Translations under genes and position numbers: made by a program
Notes under the pieces: model-generated
What the model saw: the letters and a program-made list of their open reading frames with translations, nothing else
Databases searched by the model: none
What the model was told of the DNA's origin: nothing
Shown here: positions 31,161-51,093 of the stretch, piece after piece
How the letters are laid out: every line of letters begins with the position of its first letter
Numbering within the stretch: position 1 is the stretch's first letter
Source of the DNA: Candidatus Desulforudis audaxviator MP104C
GTDB lineage: Bacteria > Bacillota > Desulfotomaculia > Desulfotomaculales > Desulforudaceae
Length of the DNA: 64,000 nucleotides
NCBI RefSeq assembly: GCF_000018425.1
Contig: NC_010424.1
Coordinates: forward strand, 1,364,001 to 1,428,000
Direction: 5' to 3'

Positions 31161-31229
31161 CAAGGTCAGCCGCCGCCTGGTGAAAAACGACGCATGGCCC
31201 GCGCTCCCCCCTCTCCCGCGGAGGTGATT

Positions 31230-31402
31230 GTGGCGCCGTATCCAGGCAGGTCTCCTGACTGAGGTTCACCGCGCCTGCCGCCTTCCCAGGCTTTCCGCCT
31301 AGTGGCTTTTACAGGCAGGCGCTCCCCATCACAGTGGCGGGGCCGTCCGGGATTCGCACCCGGTTCCCTTTTTCACCCTGCGCCGCGCAGGGCACCTGAA
31401 TA
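31230..31402 (-). ncRNA. Cobalamin riboswitch
   Basis: The minus strand begins with a GGTGCCC-type stem and shows GCCACTGTGATGGGGAG-like core bases. It then has AAGCCTGGGAAGG and the B12 box AGTCAGGAGACCTGCC (about 31239-31256). The order and spacing match the adenosylcobalamin aptamer. It controls btuFCD-cobTSU through the terminator at 31126-31160. Confidence 0.93.
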
Positions 31403-31423
31403 CTTTATGAAGTTATACATGTT

Positions 31424-44931: not shown

Positions 44932-45360
44932 ATGGGCCTGAGACGTTGGGACCCCCCCGAACTGACGACCCTGCGCGAACAGATGAACCGGCTGTGGGAC
45001 ACGCTGCGGACCGGAACGCGGGAGGCCGCCGCCCCGCGGGTCGACGTGCACCAGACAGAGAACGAGGTGGTAGCGGTGGCGGAGCTGCCGGGCGTGCCCT
45101 CCAAGGACGACATCGAGGTGCAGGTAACCAAGGACAGCATCTCCATCCGCGGGGAGATCAAACGGGTGCACGACGTCCGCGAAGAGGACTTCATCCACAG
45201 CGAGCGGTTCTACGGCAGTTTTTCACGGATCCTGCCCCTGCCGGTCGAGGTCAAGCCGAATGAAGCGACGGGGCGATTCGAGAACGGGATTCTGGAAATA
45301 CGGATTCCCAAGACCGAAGCCGGCCGCAGACCGAAGGCGCACCGCGTGGACATCAACTAA
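44932..45360 (+). CDS. Hsp20 / alpha-crystallin small heat-shock protein
   Basis: 142-aa ATP-independent holdase. The alpha-crystallin domain spans about residues 38-128, with VAELPGVPSKDDIEVQV, a GSFSRILPLP block and the A-x-x-x-GxL-type ENGILEIRIPK. The N-terminal arm is short. AGGAGG lies before ATG 44932. It is followed by two DUF3231 genes on the same strand, possibly but not certainly one transcript. Confidence 0.93.
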   Translation: MGLRRWDPPELTTLREQMNRLWDTLRTGTREAAAPRVDVHQTENEVVAVAELPGVPSKDDIEVQVTKDSISIRGEIKRVHDVREEDFIHSERFYGSFSRILPLPVEVKPNEATGRFENGILEIRIPKTEAGRRPKAHRVDIN

Positions 45361-45438: not shown

Positions 45439-45945
45439 GTGAAGCTTACAGATATTGCCAAGATGGCAGGGGTTCAGGGTGGTCACTTACCGCTGCTGGC
45501 CGGTGAGGCTCACGCCATCTGGCGGTTCCTGACGTTACGTTATACCTTCTTTGAGTTTACCCAACTTGTGAGCAACTATATTGAGGACACCGAGTTGAAA
45601 GCGGGAGTAATGAGGGGCGTGTCCTCCACTTTGCAGAGGCAAATCAGAAAGACGGAGGAACTCCTGGACGCTTTTGGGATTCCCCTGCCGCCCAAACCGC
45701 CGAAGTCGGTGAGCGCCGTGGTGAAATCAGAGACTATGCGGGATGAGACCATCTACCGCATGCTGCTGATCGGCATCCAGTACTTTCAGGAAACTCATAC
45801 GGAAATACAGCGCATGATGAATGACGACAAGCTGCGCAACCTCTTCATGGGTTGGATGAAGGAAGAAATGAAAATGTATGACCTTATGGTCAAATATGGC
45901 AAGATGAAGGGCTGGTACTGGAGCGCCCCCCAGTACAAGCATTAG
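45439..45945 (+). CDS. DUF3231 family protein, copy A
   Basis: 168-aa alpha-helical protein recognised as DUF3231 by its pattern GEAHAIWRFLTLRYTFFEF, then a FGIPLPPKPP turn, and the ending MVKYGKMKGWYWSAPQY. The family is found in spore formers and is related to spore coat and ferritin-like helical proteins; its function is unknown. GTG 45439 follows GAGGAGG. It forms a tandem pair with the next gene, sharing length and all major motifs, so a duplication is clear. Confidence 0.8.
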   Translation: MKLTDIAKMAGVQGGHLPLLAGEAHAIWRFLTLRYTFFEFTQLVSNYIEDTELKAGVMRGVSSTLQRQIRKTEELLDAFGIPLPPKPPKSVSAVVKSETMRDETIYRMLLIGIQYFQETHTEIQRMMNDDKLRNLFMGWMKEEMKMYDLMVKYGKMKGWYWSAPQYKH

Positions 45946-45959
45946 GAGGTAGCCGACTT

Positions 45960-46484
45960 TTGGTCCAGTTGTCGGACATAATGGACGCGCTCAGCAGCGC
46001 AACCACAGGGCAACGGCAGAGCAAGTTATATGCCGGAGAAGCCCACATCCTGTGGGAAACCCTGCAGCAGCGTTACGACTACTACGAATTCAGCCAGATC
46101 GTGATCAACAATATCAGCGACTCGGAATTCAAGATACTGGCGTCCAAAGGCGTCGGGGACACGATGAGGACCCAGATCAACAGGTTGGAGGACCTACTGA
46201 ACACGTTCGGCATACCCCTCCCAAAGCGACCGCCCGAAACCGTGATCGAGTCCGGCGAGACTGACGTCTGGCGGGACGACACAATTTTTAACCTGTTGCT
46301 GATGGGTATTCAAAACTTCCTGGGCGTCCATCTCAGAGGAGTTAAACTGTTTGTATCCGACGGGCTGCGAAACCTGTACAATGAGTTTATGGTAGAAGAA
46401 CTGAAGGTGCACGACAATCTCGTAAAGTACGGCAAGCTTAAGGGTTGGCTGCCAAGCCCGCCGGCGTACAGACAACGGGCCTGA
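45960..46484 (+). CDS. DUF3231 family protein, copy B
   Basis: 174-aa paralogue of the preceding gene: GEAHILWETLQQRYDYYEF, FGIPLPKRPP and LVKYGKLKGWLPSPPAY align directly. TTG 45960 lies after GGAGG and 14 bp downstream of copy A, so they are co-transcribed. The two copies differ enough to suggest separate partners in a heteromer or successive use, which is inference. No signal or membrane segment is seen. Confidence 0.8.
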   Translation: MVQLSDIMDALSSATTGQRQSKLYAGEAHILWETLQQRYDYYEFSQIVINNISDSEFKILASKGVGDTMRTQINRLEDLLNTFGIPLPKRPPETVIESGETDVWRDDTIFNLLLMGIQNFLGVHLRGVKLFVSDGLRNLYNEFMVEELKVHDNLVKYGKLKGWLPSPPAYRQRA

Positions 46485-46580: not shown

Positions 46581-46922
46581 TCACAACGCCTGAATGCCCA
46601 ATTCGGCCAAGTGGGCGACGATCGCCTGCAGGTCCAGCCGCCCCTGGAGAATGACCTTGCCGTTGACCGCCAGGGCCGGCAACGGGTAGGCGTCGCGGCG
46701 CAAACCCTCGTCCGCGATGGTTTCGCGCTGCCGGTAAGCCACCGCCACCCGGTCACCGTAGCGGAGACGCAGCACCTTTTGCAGCAATTTGAACTGGGCA
46801 TCCACGGGGAGCACGTCCCCCACGCTGTCTGGCGGTCAGCAGGGCGCCTCGACGCCTTCGGGGGTTTCGCCGATCACCCACACCACGGCCTCCGCCGTCA
46901 TCCCGTTTCTACTCTCGGTCAA
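46581..46922 (-). CDS. Candidate selenoprotein, thioredoxin-like fold, Cys-Sec motif
   Basis: A frame that is coding-like on both sides of one UGA (46836-46838). ATG 46901 gives 106 residues, and TTG 46922, with GGTGAT six bases upstream, gives 113. It reads VVWVIGETPEGVEAPC, then UGA, then PPDSVGDVLPVDAQFKLLQ, and further on YPLPALAVNGKVILQGRLD. A beta strand followed by a redox Cys pair, a helix and a cis-Pro-like LPALAV is the thioredoxin pattern (YuzD-like small proteins). UGA falls at the second redox position, and a SECIS-like hairpin starts ten bases later. A shorter protein from GTG 46823 would lose the active site. It lies after hydA, behind a terminator. Confidence 0.62.
46798..46825 (-). 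promoter_or_regulatory. bSECIS-like hairpin after the in-frame UGA
   Basis: On the minus strand, GCGT and ATGC pair as outer stem, GGGG and CCCC as inner stem. There is a GTGG bulge on the 3' side and a loop ACGTGC containing GT. The distance to the UGA is ten bases to the stem, which fits bacterial selenocysteine insertion elements. Confidence 0.45.
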
Positions 46923-46944: not shown

Positions 46945-46966
46945 GAAAAAGGGGGCCTAGCCCCTA
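46945..46966 (-). terminator. Terminator after hydA
   Basis: The minus strand reads AGGGGCTAGGCCCCCTTTTT: a GC stem followed by five T, 20-40 bp after the hydA stop. It resembles the AAAAAGGGG hairpin family elsewhere in the window but lacks the GAAAGTCA flank. Confidence 0.8.
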
Positions 46967-46983: not shown

Positions 46984-48756
46984 TTACCTGACTTGGGGAG
47001 CTGGACTACTCGCTCTCGCCAACTCCGGGTGGGCCGACCGCGGCGTGTAGCTGGTATGCAAAAGCTTGTGCGATTTTTCGCCCAGCGGTTCGCCCAGGAA
47101 CCGTTCGTACAGCTCGATGATGGCCGGGTTCTCGTGGGACTTGCGCAGCTTCATCCCCTTGTCCAGGCGGTAGATCCCGGCGGCGCGCCGCTGCCGGACA
47201 TCGGGATTGGCACAGATCGGCTGGCCGCCCCCGCCGATGCAGCCGCCGGGACAAGCCATCACCTCGATGAAGTGGCAGTCCTTCAACTCGCCAGCCTTCA
47301 GCTTCTCCATCAACATCCGGGCGTGACCCAGACCGTGGGCCACCATCACCCTGACGGGGTTGCCCTCCAGGTCGATGGCCGCCTGCCGGACACCGTCCAG
47401 CCCGCGCACCACCTCGATGTCGATTCCGGGTAAAGGTTTCCCGGTGAGCAGTTCGTAGGCTGTGCGCAGCGCCGCCTCCATCACCCCACCCGTGGCGCCA
47501 AAGATGGCCCCGGCGCCCGTGGAGAGGCCCATGGGGCGGTCGTACTCCTCATCCGGCATATTGTTCAGGTCGATGCACGCCTCGTGGAGCATCCGGACCA
47601 GTTCCCGGGTAGTGAGCACCATGTCCACGTCCCGGTAGCCGCTGGCGTTCATCTCCGGCCGGCCCGCCTCGAATTTCTTGGCGGTGCAGGGCATGATCGA
47701 GACCACCACCATATCCTTCGGGTCGATCCCGGCCTGTTCCGCATAGTAGGTCTTGGCCAGCGCCCCGAACATCTGCTGCGGCGACTTGGCGGTGGACAGG
47801 TGCGGCAGGAACTCGGGATAGAAATGCTCGATGAACTTGATCCACCCCGGGCTGCAGGACGTGATCATCGGCAGCGGGCCGCCTTTGGTGAGGCGGTGGA
47901 TCAACTCGTTCCCTTCCTCGACAATGGTCAGGTCCGCCGTGAAGTCCGTGTCGAACACCCGGTCGAAACCGAGCCGGCGCAGGGCGGCCACCATCTTGCC
48001 GGTCACCGGCGTGCCCGGGGGCAAGCCGAACGCCTCGCCCAGTGTAACCCGGGTTGCGGGCGCGGTCTGCACCACCACGTGTTTGGCGGGGTCGGCCAGC
48101 GCCGCCCAGACGGCCCCAGTGTCGTCACGCTCGTAGATAGCGCCCACGGGGCACACCAGCGCGCACTGTCCGCAGTGTACGCAAACCGAATCGCCCAGGG
48201 GCAGGTTGTAAGGGGGCGCGATCACCGTGGCAAAGCCCCGCAGCTGCGGCCCGATGGCGTGCACCGTCTGCACTTCGGCGCAGACCGTGACGCAGCGCCG
48301 GCAGTAAATGCACTTCTGGGGCTCCCGGATAATCGCCGGGCTGGAGTCGTCCTTCTTGTAAAGGGTCCGGGACATCCGCTGGAACCGGATCTCCCGGAGG
48401 CCCATCAGGTTCGCGGCCGCCTGCAGTTCACAACTGCCGCTCCGGATGCAGAGCAGGCACTCGTTCGGGTGGTCGGAGAGCATCAGCTCTAGGATCATCC
48501 GTCGGGCCTCCCGGACGCCGGGCGTGCCGGTCCGCACCACCATCCCTTCGGTGGCCGGCAGGGTGCAGGAGGCCAGGTATGTCCGGGCACCCTCGACCTC
48601 CACGATGCACATGCGACAGGCCCCGGCCCGGTGGTTCAACTGCTTCAGGTAGCAGAGGGTCGGGATGGCAATGCCCAACTGCCGGGCCGCGTCCAGCACG
48701 GTGGTCCCCGGTTCAACCGTCACGGGCCGGCCATCTATGGTCAGAGTAACGGCCAT
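46984..48756 (-). CDS. hydA: [FeFe] hydrogenase catalytic subunit, trimeric HydA/HndD type
   Basis: 590-aa catalytic subunit. The N-terminal NuoG-like part has a [2Fe-2S] ferredoxin domain (about residues 1-80), a His-ligated [4Fe-4S] segment (DHPNECLLCIRSGSC) and two [4Fe-4S] clusters (CIYCRRCVTVC, CVHCGQCALVC). H-cluster motifs are TSCSPGWIKF, MPCTAKKFE and EVMACPGGCIGGGG, followed by the small-subunit-like C-terminus. ATG 48756 has GGGAGGGAG upstream. With HydB and HydC it should form a cytosolic complex that couples H2 with NAD(P)H, probably together with ferredoxin by electron bifurcation. Confidence 0.95.
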   Translation of the reverse strand: MAVTLTIDGRPVTVEPGTTVLDAARQLGIAIPTLCYLKQLNHRAGACRMCIVEVEGARTYLASCTLPATEGMVVRTGTPGVREARRMILELMLSDHPNECLLCIRSGSCELQAAANLMGLREIRFQRMSRTLYKKDDSSPAIIREPQKCIYCRRCVTVCAEVQTVHAIGPQLRGFATVIAPPYNLPLGDSVCVHCGQCALVCPVGAIYERDDTGAVWAALADPAKHVVVQTAPATRVTLGEAFGLPPGTPVTGKMVAALRRLGFDRVFDTDFTADLTIVEEGNELIHRLTKGGPLPMITSCSPGWIKFIEHFYPEFLPHLSTAKSPQQMFGALAKTYYAEQAGIDPKDMVVVSIMPCTAKKFEAGRPEMNASGYRDVDMVLTTRELVRMLHEACIDLNNMPDEEYDRPMGLSTGAGAIFGATGGVMEAALRTAYELLTGKPLPGIDIEVVRGLDGVRQAAIDLEGNPVRVMVAHGLGHARMLMEKLKAGELKDCHFIEVMACPGGCIGGGGQPICANPDVRQRRAAGIYRLDKGMKLRKSHENPAIIELYERFLGEPLGEKSHKLLHTSYTPRSAHPELARASSPAPQVR

Positions 48757-48769
48757 AAAATCTCCCTCC

Positions 48770-50488
48770 CTACTTCTTGGCCTGCGCCGGGCCGATGCGC
48801 ATGGGACAGACGCCGGTTGGACATTGTTTTTCAACCGCGTGCCGGTCGTACTCATGCCGGTAGTGCCGGGTCGTGCTTAAGACCGGGTTCCCGGCGGTCT
48901 GACCCAACCCGCAAAGCGCGGTCTTTTTGACCACGTTGGCCAGTTCGATCAAAAGCTCCACGTCTTCCTTCGTCGCCCGGCCCTGGGTCAGCCGGGTCAG
49001 GATCTCCAGCATCCGCCTGGTGCCGATCCGGCACGGCGTGCACTTCCCGCAGGACTCGTCCTGCACGAAATCCATGAAAAACCGGGCCACGTCGACCATG
49101 CAGCTGTCCTCGTCCAGGACGATCATGCCGCCCGACCCCATGATCGAGTCGAGCGCGGCCAGGGCCTCGTAGTCGATCGGCGTGTCAATGTACTCCGCGG
49201 GGATGGCGCCCCCCGAGGGTCCGCCGCTCTGGATCGCCTTTAAGCTTTTGCCGTTTTTCATTCCGCCGCCGATGTCGTACACCACTTCCCGCAGGGTGGT
49301 GCCCAGAGGCACTTCCACCAGGCCGGTGTTGACGATTTTGCCGGCCAGGGCGAAAACCTTGGTCCCCTTGCTCTTCTCGGTGCCGATGCCCGCGTACCAG
49401 TCGCCGCCGCGCAGGATGATCGGGGCGATGTTCGCCCAGGTCTCCACGTTGTTAATCACCGTGGGCTTGTCGAACAAGCCGCACTGGGCCGGAAACGGCG
49501 GGCGCGGGCGCGGTTCGCCGCGCTTGCCCGCGATGGAATGAAGGAGCGCCGTTTCCTCGCCGCATACGAAAGCGCCGGCGCCGACACGGATCTCGACGTC
49601 AAAGCTGAAACCCGAGTCCAGGATATCCGTGCCGAGAAGACCCATCTCCCGGGCGCTCTTAATGGCGGCCCCGAAGTTCTTGATCGCCAGCGGATACTCC
49701 GCCCGGATATAGGCGTAACCCTTGGAAGCCCCCACGGCGTAACCGCCGATAGCCATTCCCTCCAGCACCGAGTGCGGGTCGCCCTCCAAAACGCTCCGGT
49801 CCATGAACGCCCCGGGGTCACCCTCGTCGCCGTTGCAGACCACGTACTTGGGCTCGTCCTCGGCCTGCAAGGTGAACTGCCACTTCAGGCCAGTGGGGAA
49901 ACCCGCCCCGCCGCGCCCGCGCAGCCCGGACTTCTTAATCTCCTCCACGACCTGCTCCCTGGTCATCCCGTTCAGCACGCGGGCCAGTGCCGTGTAACCG
50001 TCGCGGCCGATGTACTCCTCGATGGAAAGGGGGTCGATAATCCCACAGTTCCGCAGCACAATCCGCTTTTGCCGGTTGAAGAAGGGGATCTCGGGCAGGC
50101 GCGCCAGCACTCTGCCGGTGTCCGGACACCGGTGCAGCAGACGGTTCACCGGGCGGCCCTCCCGCAGGTGCTCAGTGACCACTGATTCCACGTCCCCGGC
50201 CGTAACCTTCTCGTAGAAAATCCCGTCCGGGTAGACGGTGATCATCGGTCCCAGGTTGCACGGCCCCAGGCAGCCGGTTTCAATCACCCGCACCTTCGCT
50301 TCCAGGCCCTGCTTTCTTATCTCATCAACCAGCGCGCTTTTCACGGACTTGCAGCCGGAGGAAACACAGCCGGTGCCCCCGCAGACCAGGGCGTGGTATT
50401 CGTACCCGTCGACCGGGCGTTCATTCGCCCGCAGCCGCAGCGCCTCGTGCGCCTTGGCCCGCAACTCCGCCAGTCCGGTAATGTTCAT
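48770..50488 (-). CDS. hydB: NuoF-like hydrogenase subunit HydB/HndC
   Basis: 572-aa flavoprotein subunit. The N-terminal thioredoxin-like [2Fe-2S] domain ends in ETGCLGPCNLGP. The FMN/NADH module has GRGGAGFPTGLKW and CNGDEGDPGAFMDR. A [4Fe-4S] site is ESCGKCTPCR with a later Cys in ALCGLG. The C-terminus stops shortly after CPTGVCPMR, so the two-cluster ferredoxin domain often present at the end of HydB is missing. It starts at ATG 50488 after GGGGGAGGTGG and is followed by hydA within 14 bp. Confidence 0.94.
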   Translation of the reverse strand: MNITGLAELRAKAHEALRLRANERPVDGYEYHALVCGGTGCVSSGCKSVKSALVDEIRKQGLEAKVRVIETGCLGPCNLGPMITVYPDGIFYEKVTAGDVESVVTEHLREGRPVNRLLHRCPDTGRVLARLPEIPFFNRQKRIVLRNCGIIDPLSIEEYIGRDGYTALARVLNGMTREQVVEEIKKSGLRGRGGAGFPTGLKWQFTLQAEDEPKYVVCNGDEGDPGAFMDRSVLEGDPHSVLEGMAIGGYAVGASKGYAYIRAEYPLAIKNFGAAIKSAREMGLLGTDILDSGFSFDVEIRVGAGAFVCGEETALLHSIAGKRGEPRPRPPFPAQCGLFDKPTVINNVETWANIAPIILRGGDWYAGIGTEKSKGTKVFALAGKIVNTGLVEVPLGTTLREVVYDIGGGMKNGKSLKAIQSGGPSGGAIPAEYIDTPIDYEALAALDSIMGSGGMIVLDEDSCMVDVARFFMDFVQDESCGKCTPCRIGTRRMLEILTRLTQGRATKEDVELLIELANVVKKTALCGLGQTAGNPVLSTTRHYRHEYDRHAVEKQCPTGVCPMRIGPAQAKK

Positions 50489-50509
50489 CGGTCCACCTCC
50501 CCCTTGCAG

Positions 50510-50977
50510 CTACTTGTATTGCTCCAGAATCTCCGGCACCTTTTCCGGTTCAACCCCGGCGTGCACGTCCTCGTCCACCGTCATTACCGGCGCCAGGGCG
50601 CAGCAGCCGATACACCGGACCACGTCCAGGGAGAAGCGCCGGTCCGGCGTAGTGTCTCCGGCCTTGATCCCCAGCTCTTGTTCCAGCCGGACCTTCACCG
50701 CGGCCGAACCCTTGACGTAGCAGGCGGTGCCGTTGCACAGGGCGATGCCGTGACGGCCGCGCGGCCGGAAGGTGAAAAAGGCGTAAAAGGAAGCCGTTCC
50801 ATAGACCTCGGTCAAAGAAAGCCCCAGTTTATCGGCCACCTCCACCAGCACGGGCTTCGGCAGGTAACCGACGGTCTGCTGGACGTGGGACAGCACCTGG
50901 ATCAGGCTGGACGGCTCACCGCGATGGGCCTCTATGTAACTGACCAACCGGTCCAAAAGAGGTTCTTGCTGAGGCAT
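50510..50977 (-). CDS. hydC: NuoE-like hydrogenase subunit HydC/HndA
   Basis: 155-aa [2Fe-2S] subunit. Four conserved Cys lie in CNGTACYVKG and VVRCIGCCALAP, the NuoE pattern. The N-terminal helical bundle contains HVQQTVGYLP and the EVYGTASFY block. ATG 50977 follows AAGGGAG at six bases; an upstream ATG at 51013 lacks such a site. It is the first gene of the hydC-hydB-hydA operon and passes electrons between the flavin and the other clusters. Confidence 0.93.
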   Translation of the reverse strand: MPQQEPLLDRLVSYIEAHRGEPSSLIQVLSHVQQTVGYLPKPVLVEVADKLGLSLTEVYGTASFYAFFTFRPRGRHGIALCNGTACYVKGSAAVKVRLEQELGIKAGDTTPDRRFSLDVVRCIGCCALAPVMTVDEDVHAGVEPEKVPEILEQYK

Positions 50978-51093
50978 AGGCGACTCCCTTCTTTCGTCAC
51001 TAGTTTCTACCATCTGTTCTAATATTCACATAACTTTGACGGACACCGGATTTCTCCTGCCCAATAATTAAGAAAATTCAGCTTAAAACCGGC

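Follow-up and report, generated by a model that had tools for sequence, protein, structure and literature searches.

Probable UGA-encoded selenocysteine in a predicted thioredoxin-like protein of Candidatus Desulforudis audaxviator

A predicted protein of Candidatus Desulforudis audaxviator MP104C carries a selenocysteine (Sec) encoded by an in-frame UGA codon, a reading that is strongly supported by the retention of the UGA in homologues, by a SECIS-like hairpin and by the presence of Sec machinery in the genome. The gene lies in a stretch of 64,000 nucleotides (hereafter the window, to which coordinates refer unless another contig or locus is given) of a complete genome consisting of a single contig of 2,349,476 bases (G000), and had been proposed as a candidate selenoprotein in an initial annotation made from the letters alone. 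Our favored interpretation, which we consider reasonably probable as a whole, is a 106-residue selenoprotein of thioredoxin-like fold in which Sec22 is decoded by means of the hairpin and SelB and which probably acts as a thiol/selenol-disulfide oxidoreductase.

The selenoprotein gene (46581-46901, minus strand) was delimited by the open frame over one UGA, the starts of its homologues and the pattern of selection. It runs from an ATG at 46901-46899 to a TGA stop at 46583-46581 and is made up of 21 codons, the UGA and 84 further codons (105 sense codons in total), for a product of 106 amino acids. The Sec codon (46836-46838, minus strand) specifies residue 22 and is the only internal UGA in the frame 46581-46922; residue 21, directly 5' of it, is Cys (TGC, 46839-46841). 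Translated with UGA as Sec, 46581-46922 on the minus strand gives ...GVEAPC-U-PPDSVGDVLPVDAQ...YPLPALAVNGKVILQG..., with the frame open throughout. The proposal that this frame stays coding-like across the UGA holds, there being one open frame with conservation on both sides. As for its extent, initially given as 46581-46922, the stop end stands and the start does not, since the start shared with homologues is the ATG at 46901, not the TTG at 46922. The warning that gene callers might truncate the gene was also apt: the only product that the standard ORF list gives here is an 80-aa ORF opening at GTG 46823.

That list entry is the point in favor of a different interpretation, namely a pseudogene, or else a short gene starting past the UGA at GTG 46823, which we regard as highly improbable. 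The UGA and the region 5' of it are conserved in homologues: the UGA is invariant across 20 homologous loci (17 rows of the family alignment plus L042, L043 and L044) from eight GTDB families, down to ~24% protein identity, although the apparent recent transfer among L007, L009 and L010 (see below) makes the independent lines somewhat fewer than the loci counted. An order-level homologue search matched 18 of 113 genomes, most matches containing one in-frame TGA, and a search with the five-row family alignment yielded matches in Ca. Desulfopertinax cowenii, UBA3572 and Desulforudis sp. Kmv41. Some homologue matches ended just past the UGA; in-frame reading of each locus nonetheless placed a UGA at the same position in every near-family member. 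Homologues that begin past the UGA and have neither Cys nor Sec at the aligned site had been named as evidence that would weigh against the candidate, and what we found is the reverse, with the upstream part and the UGA both kept.

Substitution patterns point the same way. Between G000 and the same-genus genome G047, dS was 0.23 and dN 0.09 upstream of the UGA, an estimate that rests on 21 codons and so on small counts, and dS was 0.49 and dN 0.11 downstream of it. In other homologue pairs dS likewise exceeded dN upstream and downstream, and the upstream estimate is in line with the conservation of amino acids between far more distant sequences. From these comparisons, purifying selection acts both upstream and downstream of the UGA. 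An upstream region with dS > dN and conserved amino acids is at odds with a pseudogene or a downstream start; moreover, GTG 46823 sits within the hairpin described below and is not a conserved start.

Several features of individual homologues were recorded alongside. The Sec proteins encoded at L007, L009 and L010 (L073, L075 and L076), loci from three GTDB families, hardly differ (dS 0.1-0.2), and some neighboring ORFs are shared, a sign of recent horizontal transfer of the selenoprotein gene together with its SECIS hairpin. Directly upstream of the Sec gene of Desulforudis sp. Kmv41 is a tandem paralogue (L096:4513-4818; also at L020) with TCA (Ser) at the UGA site in the motif SFSPP and no nearby Cys; since the remainder of this protein is conserved, it may be a non-catalytic copy. 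A second tandem copy in UBA3572 (L019/L021, genome G044) has no Cys before the UGA and a frame broken further on, and is either a decayed gene or an assembly error.

A bSECIS-like hairpin follows the UGA, with its core at 46803-46824 (minus strand), inside the interval 46798-46825 for which a hairpin of the bacterial SECIS type had been proposed. It was identified by folding and by homologue hairpins of other sequence at the same spacing. In the window the hairpin is GGGGA-CGUGC-UCCCC, with C(12) pairing to G(33) after the UGA and the apical loop CGUGC ~20 nt past the UGA. The suggested comparison with bSECIS models gave a fit to the published model, which calls for a G within the first two positions of the loop, a spacing of 16-37 nt and a stable stem (PMC13188914). 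Tested alone against synonymous recoding, the window hairpin is borderline (p ~0.09). The fold of the whole stretch around it was no better than that of shuffled sequences (z = +0.88), and for this reason we used spacing-restricted synonymous-codon tests on the homologues. The stems of the latter differ in sequence between clades (GCGUU/AACGC, UUCUUC/GAAGAA, ACUUC/GAAGU, CGGC/GCCG) and keep the same spacing. Across 14 loci (one sequence per cluster; hairpins at 17-22 nt past the UGA), the summed hairpin energy was -76.0 against -27.8 +/- 10.2 for the synonymous-codon null, with none of 2000 nulls as low, and hairpins of ≤ -4 kcal/mol were present in 10 of the 14 loci against a null mean of 3.0. 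The hairpin is thus significant only as a homologue set, the window's own being borderline. An Rfam scan of the window had a cobalamin riboswitch as its sole match (RF00174, 127.4 bits; 31228-31414, minus strand).

Genes for Sec synthesis and insertion are present in G000. The initial annotation had proposed a search for selA, selB, selC and selD, with absence of selB or selC counting against Sec, and all four were found: selA is directly followed by selB, a tRNA-Sec with a UCA anticodon is encoded, and there are two selD genes (C1:1618939-1619862 and C1:2090681-2091601; L089 and L090), which appear to be selenoproteins themselves because each contains one in-frame TGA. SelB occurs in nearly all genomes examined, so its presence is of no use as a co-occurrence test. 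That the UGA specifies some other amino acid, whether by leaky readthrough or through TGA coding for Trp, is very hard to credit: the open frame would accommodate it and offers nothing more, whereas the tRNA detected with a UCA anticodon is tRNA-Sec, Sec agrees with the conserved SECIS-like hairpin, distant homologues carry Cys and not Trp at the approximately aligned position, and TGA is the selenoprotein gene's own stop. The computational support for Sec insertion is good.

The initial annotation had further described a Cys-UGA redox motif, and conservation of such a pair is not borne out by the homologues. Most family members have PG-U-PPEG-C, that is, Sec-x4-Cys (U-x4-C). The Desulforudis line has APC-U-PPD (PCUPPD in the window) and lacks the distal Cys, and the close relative Ca. 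Desulfopertinax cowenii (L003/L094) has APF-U-PPN, with Phe beside Sec and no Cys near. In this alignment, what is conserved is Sec and not the CU pair, and the resolving Cys is not conserved. In the wider alignment, where the motif loop is only approximately aligned between subfamilies, other subfamilies have C-x4-U (L045, L047, L064) or C-x4-C (L059), the CxxxxC of L059 standing beside the CxxxxU of L064, and some distant homologues carry Cys-rich motifs such as GCSCGCSSC. Cys-type homologues, subject to the same approximate loop alignment, are confined to the distant relatives L059, L049, L057, L058 and L065, with none in the near family.

One account of this variation, for which we put the chances at about even, is an uncatalogued family with Sec fixed across a broad clade and a thiol partner that drifts, Sec acting from either end of an ancestral C-x4-C or without an internal resolving thiol. 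The series would comprise the U-x4-C of most members, the CU of Desulforudis, the lone Sec of Desulfopertinax and the C-x4-U of a sister subfamily with SECIS hairpins of its own. As a separate observation, the distant subfamily of L045, L047, L050, L056 and L064 has a C-x4-U-G-P motif and strong hairpins 17 nt past the UGA, with a perfect 14-bp stem in L045, and seems to form another uncatalogued group of selenoproteins.

Statements about the fold rest on a structure model computed from the five-row alignment (pLDDT 80, pTM 0.67), the single-sequence model being poor (pLDDT 60). The modeled elements (E5-11, H33-51, E52-58, H65-70, E76-79, E82-86, H91-100) follow thioredoxin order, and Pro75 precedes strand 3, the cis-Pro position, in agreement with the small thioredoxin fold with a cis-Pro-like residue that had been read from the translation. 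Sec is placed in the loop after strand 1, in a region (residues 15-28) mostly with pLDDT < 50. Thioredoxin-like folds usually have their redox center in this loop, which joins the first strand to the first helix. The matches by structure were thioredoxins, 1xg8 (Z 8.2; 90 residues at 3.1 A) and the ArsD structure 3mwh (Z 7.0); at Z 7-8 such matches show a shared fold only, not a function. By sequence profile, 1xg8 was also the best solved-structure match (E 0.008). The protein is predicted to have a thioredoxin-like fold nearest to DUF1462, the family of 1xg8.

In the proposed mechanism, SelB with Sec-tRNA(UCA) would recognize the hairpin ~20 nt downstream, and UGA codon 22 would on that account be read as Sec, the UGA at the 3' end serving as an ordinary stop. 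The product, a cytosolic selenoprotein of 106 residues, would work as a thiol/selenol-disulfide oxidoreductase with Sec as its attacking nucleophile. For most family members the partner of Sec would be the Cys five residues on (U-x4-C), and in the Desulforudis line, where the distal Cys is lost, the Sec-adjacent Cys or an external thiol would resolve. We infer that Sec is a redox nucleophile whose partner has shifted in evolution. Thiol/selenol oxidoreductase is the most likely role, and metalloid binding is its main rival.

This rival, based on analogy with ArsD, supposes that the selenoprotein binds a soft metal or metalloid ion, for example As(III) or Hg(II), through CU or U-x4-C, and we consider it unlikely, though it is the main alternative. 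ArsD is itself thioredoxin-like with vicinal cysteines, relatives of the window protein give weak ArsD profile matches, the ArsD structure is among the fold matches noted above, the GCSCGCSSC-type motifs of distant homologues are Cys-rich, and several catalogued CU-motif selenoproteins are tied to metals or organometals (PMC13188914). These points are set against an ArsD profile that fell below the cut-off in every case tested, a lone Sec beside Phe in L003/L094 that would make a poor multidentate site, and the lack of recognizable ars or mer genes adjoining the gene in the loci read, for which part of the neighbors were scanned.

The neighborhood was likewise considered for what it may say about function. 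Upstream of the gene on the same strand lies a gene for the large subunit of an [FeFe]-hydrogenase of HydA type (46984-48855, minus strand; Pfam Fe_hyd_lg_C, 3.7e-101), with NADH-dehydrogenase-like HydB and HydC of the same hydrogenase at 48770-51013 (minus strand; Pfam Complex1_51K and 2Fe-2S_thioredx). The selenoprotein gene begins 82 nt downstream of hydA, and the adjacency recurs in G047 and G045, which would agree with a protein serving the hydrogenase, for example in redox repair or as an assembly factor. However, 18 of the 21 loci have no hydrogenase neighbor, and in both Desulforudis genomes a terminator-like hairpin separates the two genes, found by hairpin scan at 46951-46965 (both strands) in the window and present at the same place in G047 with another sequence and a T-run after it. 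An Hsp20 neighbor is more widely kept: the small heat-shock gene (44932-45360, plus strand; Pfam HSP20, 1.7e-17) is convergent, and in nine loci of two families it is convergent and close, as part of a longer run of genes in shared order, so that its position may reflect synteny rather than function. The partnership is therefore rejected on neighborhood evidence, with only a slight residual probability, and the position beside the hydrogenase operon, which the initial annotation had mentioned, is a local arrangement (3 of 21 loci, the window included). Elsewhere the neighbors include an HdrBC/ferredoxin-like operon (L084/L085), a radical SAM gene (L080) and an M48 peptidase gene (L082), and no conserved operon partner that would name a substrate was seen in the loci read. 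In the window, Hsp20 is separated from the selenoprotein gene by two tandem DUF3231 genes (45439-45945 and 45960-46484, plus strand); in G047 the two flanking genes are ~14 nt apart.

Because gene callers take UGA for a stop, annotation easily loses selenoproteins, and it seems to have missed this family in the well-known genome of a deep-subsurface sulfate reducer and in its relatives. With the family comes a thioredoxin-like selenoprotein that has neither UxxC nor CxxU, and the members together make a natural series on the function of Sec when the resolving partner shifts or vanishes. A family profile would let annotation pipelines recover such genes.

Comparison with known families was made by using Pfam and NCBIfam models and a catalogue from 2026 that lists 119 families and subfamilies of prokaryotic selenoproteins (PMC13188914), relative to which the family seems uncatalogued. 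No model scored above its cut-off for the window protein or four near-family relatives, and the catalogue lists none of this description; several of its families have CU or thioredoxin-like features (PMC13188914), with none of its thioredoxin-like selenoproteins having U-x4-C, C-x4-U or CU in a comparable setting. SaoT (NF040730), the HUIPC-motif (NF047660) and VPGUxxT (NF041383) proteins and Sec.1/Sec.2 (PF13192) are similarly small and thioredoxin-like with Sec in a redox-type motif, but their motifs are UxxC, VPGU, CxU and UxC, and the NCBIfam models of the catalogued thioredoxin-like selenoproteins stayed below cut-off on the Desulforudis family. The CC/Se motif selenoprotein of Moorella (NF041239) is also an anaerobic Firmicutes selenoprotein with Cys near Sec; its listed motif, however, is CxxU, and its model matched 0 of 15 sequences (the window protein and four relatives searched up to E = 10, ten more up to E = 1). 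Classical thioredoxin or glutaredoxin was rejected, as the motif PCUPPD contains no CxxC or UxxC and Pfam Thioredoxin_3 reached only E 0.14.

DUF1462 and ArsD are both placed in the thioredoxin-like clan (PMC3091736). ArsD metallochaperones (PF06953, 3mwh) share with the window protein the fold and vicinal Cys near the first strand, and differ in that Sec is present in our family, the distal Cys is absent in Desulforudis and no ars operon was recognized. The best relative scored 14.8 bits against an ArsD cut-off of 27 and the window protein had no match; with profiles below cut-off and the distal Cys missing from the As-binding triad in Desulforudis, membership was rejected. The DUF1462 profile (PF07315) gave no match to the window protein up to E = 1 and matched relatives at 0.2 to 6.2e-6, only the distant relative L046 (6.2e-6) passing the Pfam cut-off. 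Unlike DUF1462, the window protein has a CU motif without CxxC, with Sec in place of Cys; with DUF1462 (YuzD-like; S. aureus SA0798, 1xg8) it shares a thioredoxin-like fold, a similar length and a C-terminal half with YPLxxxNGExxxxG common to both.
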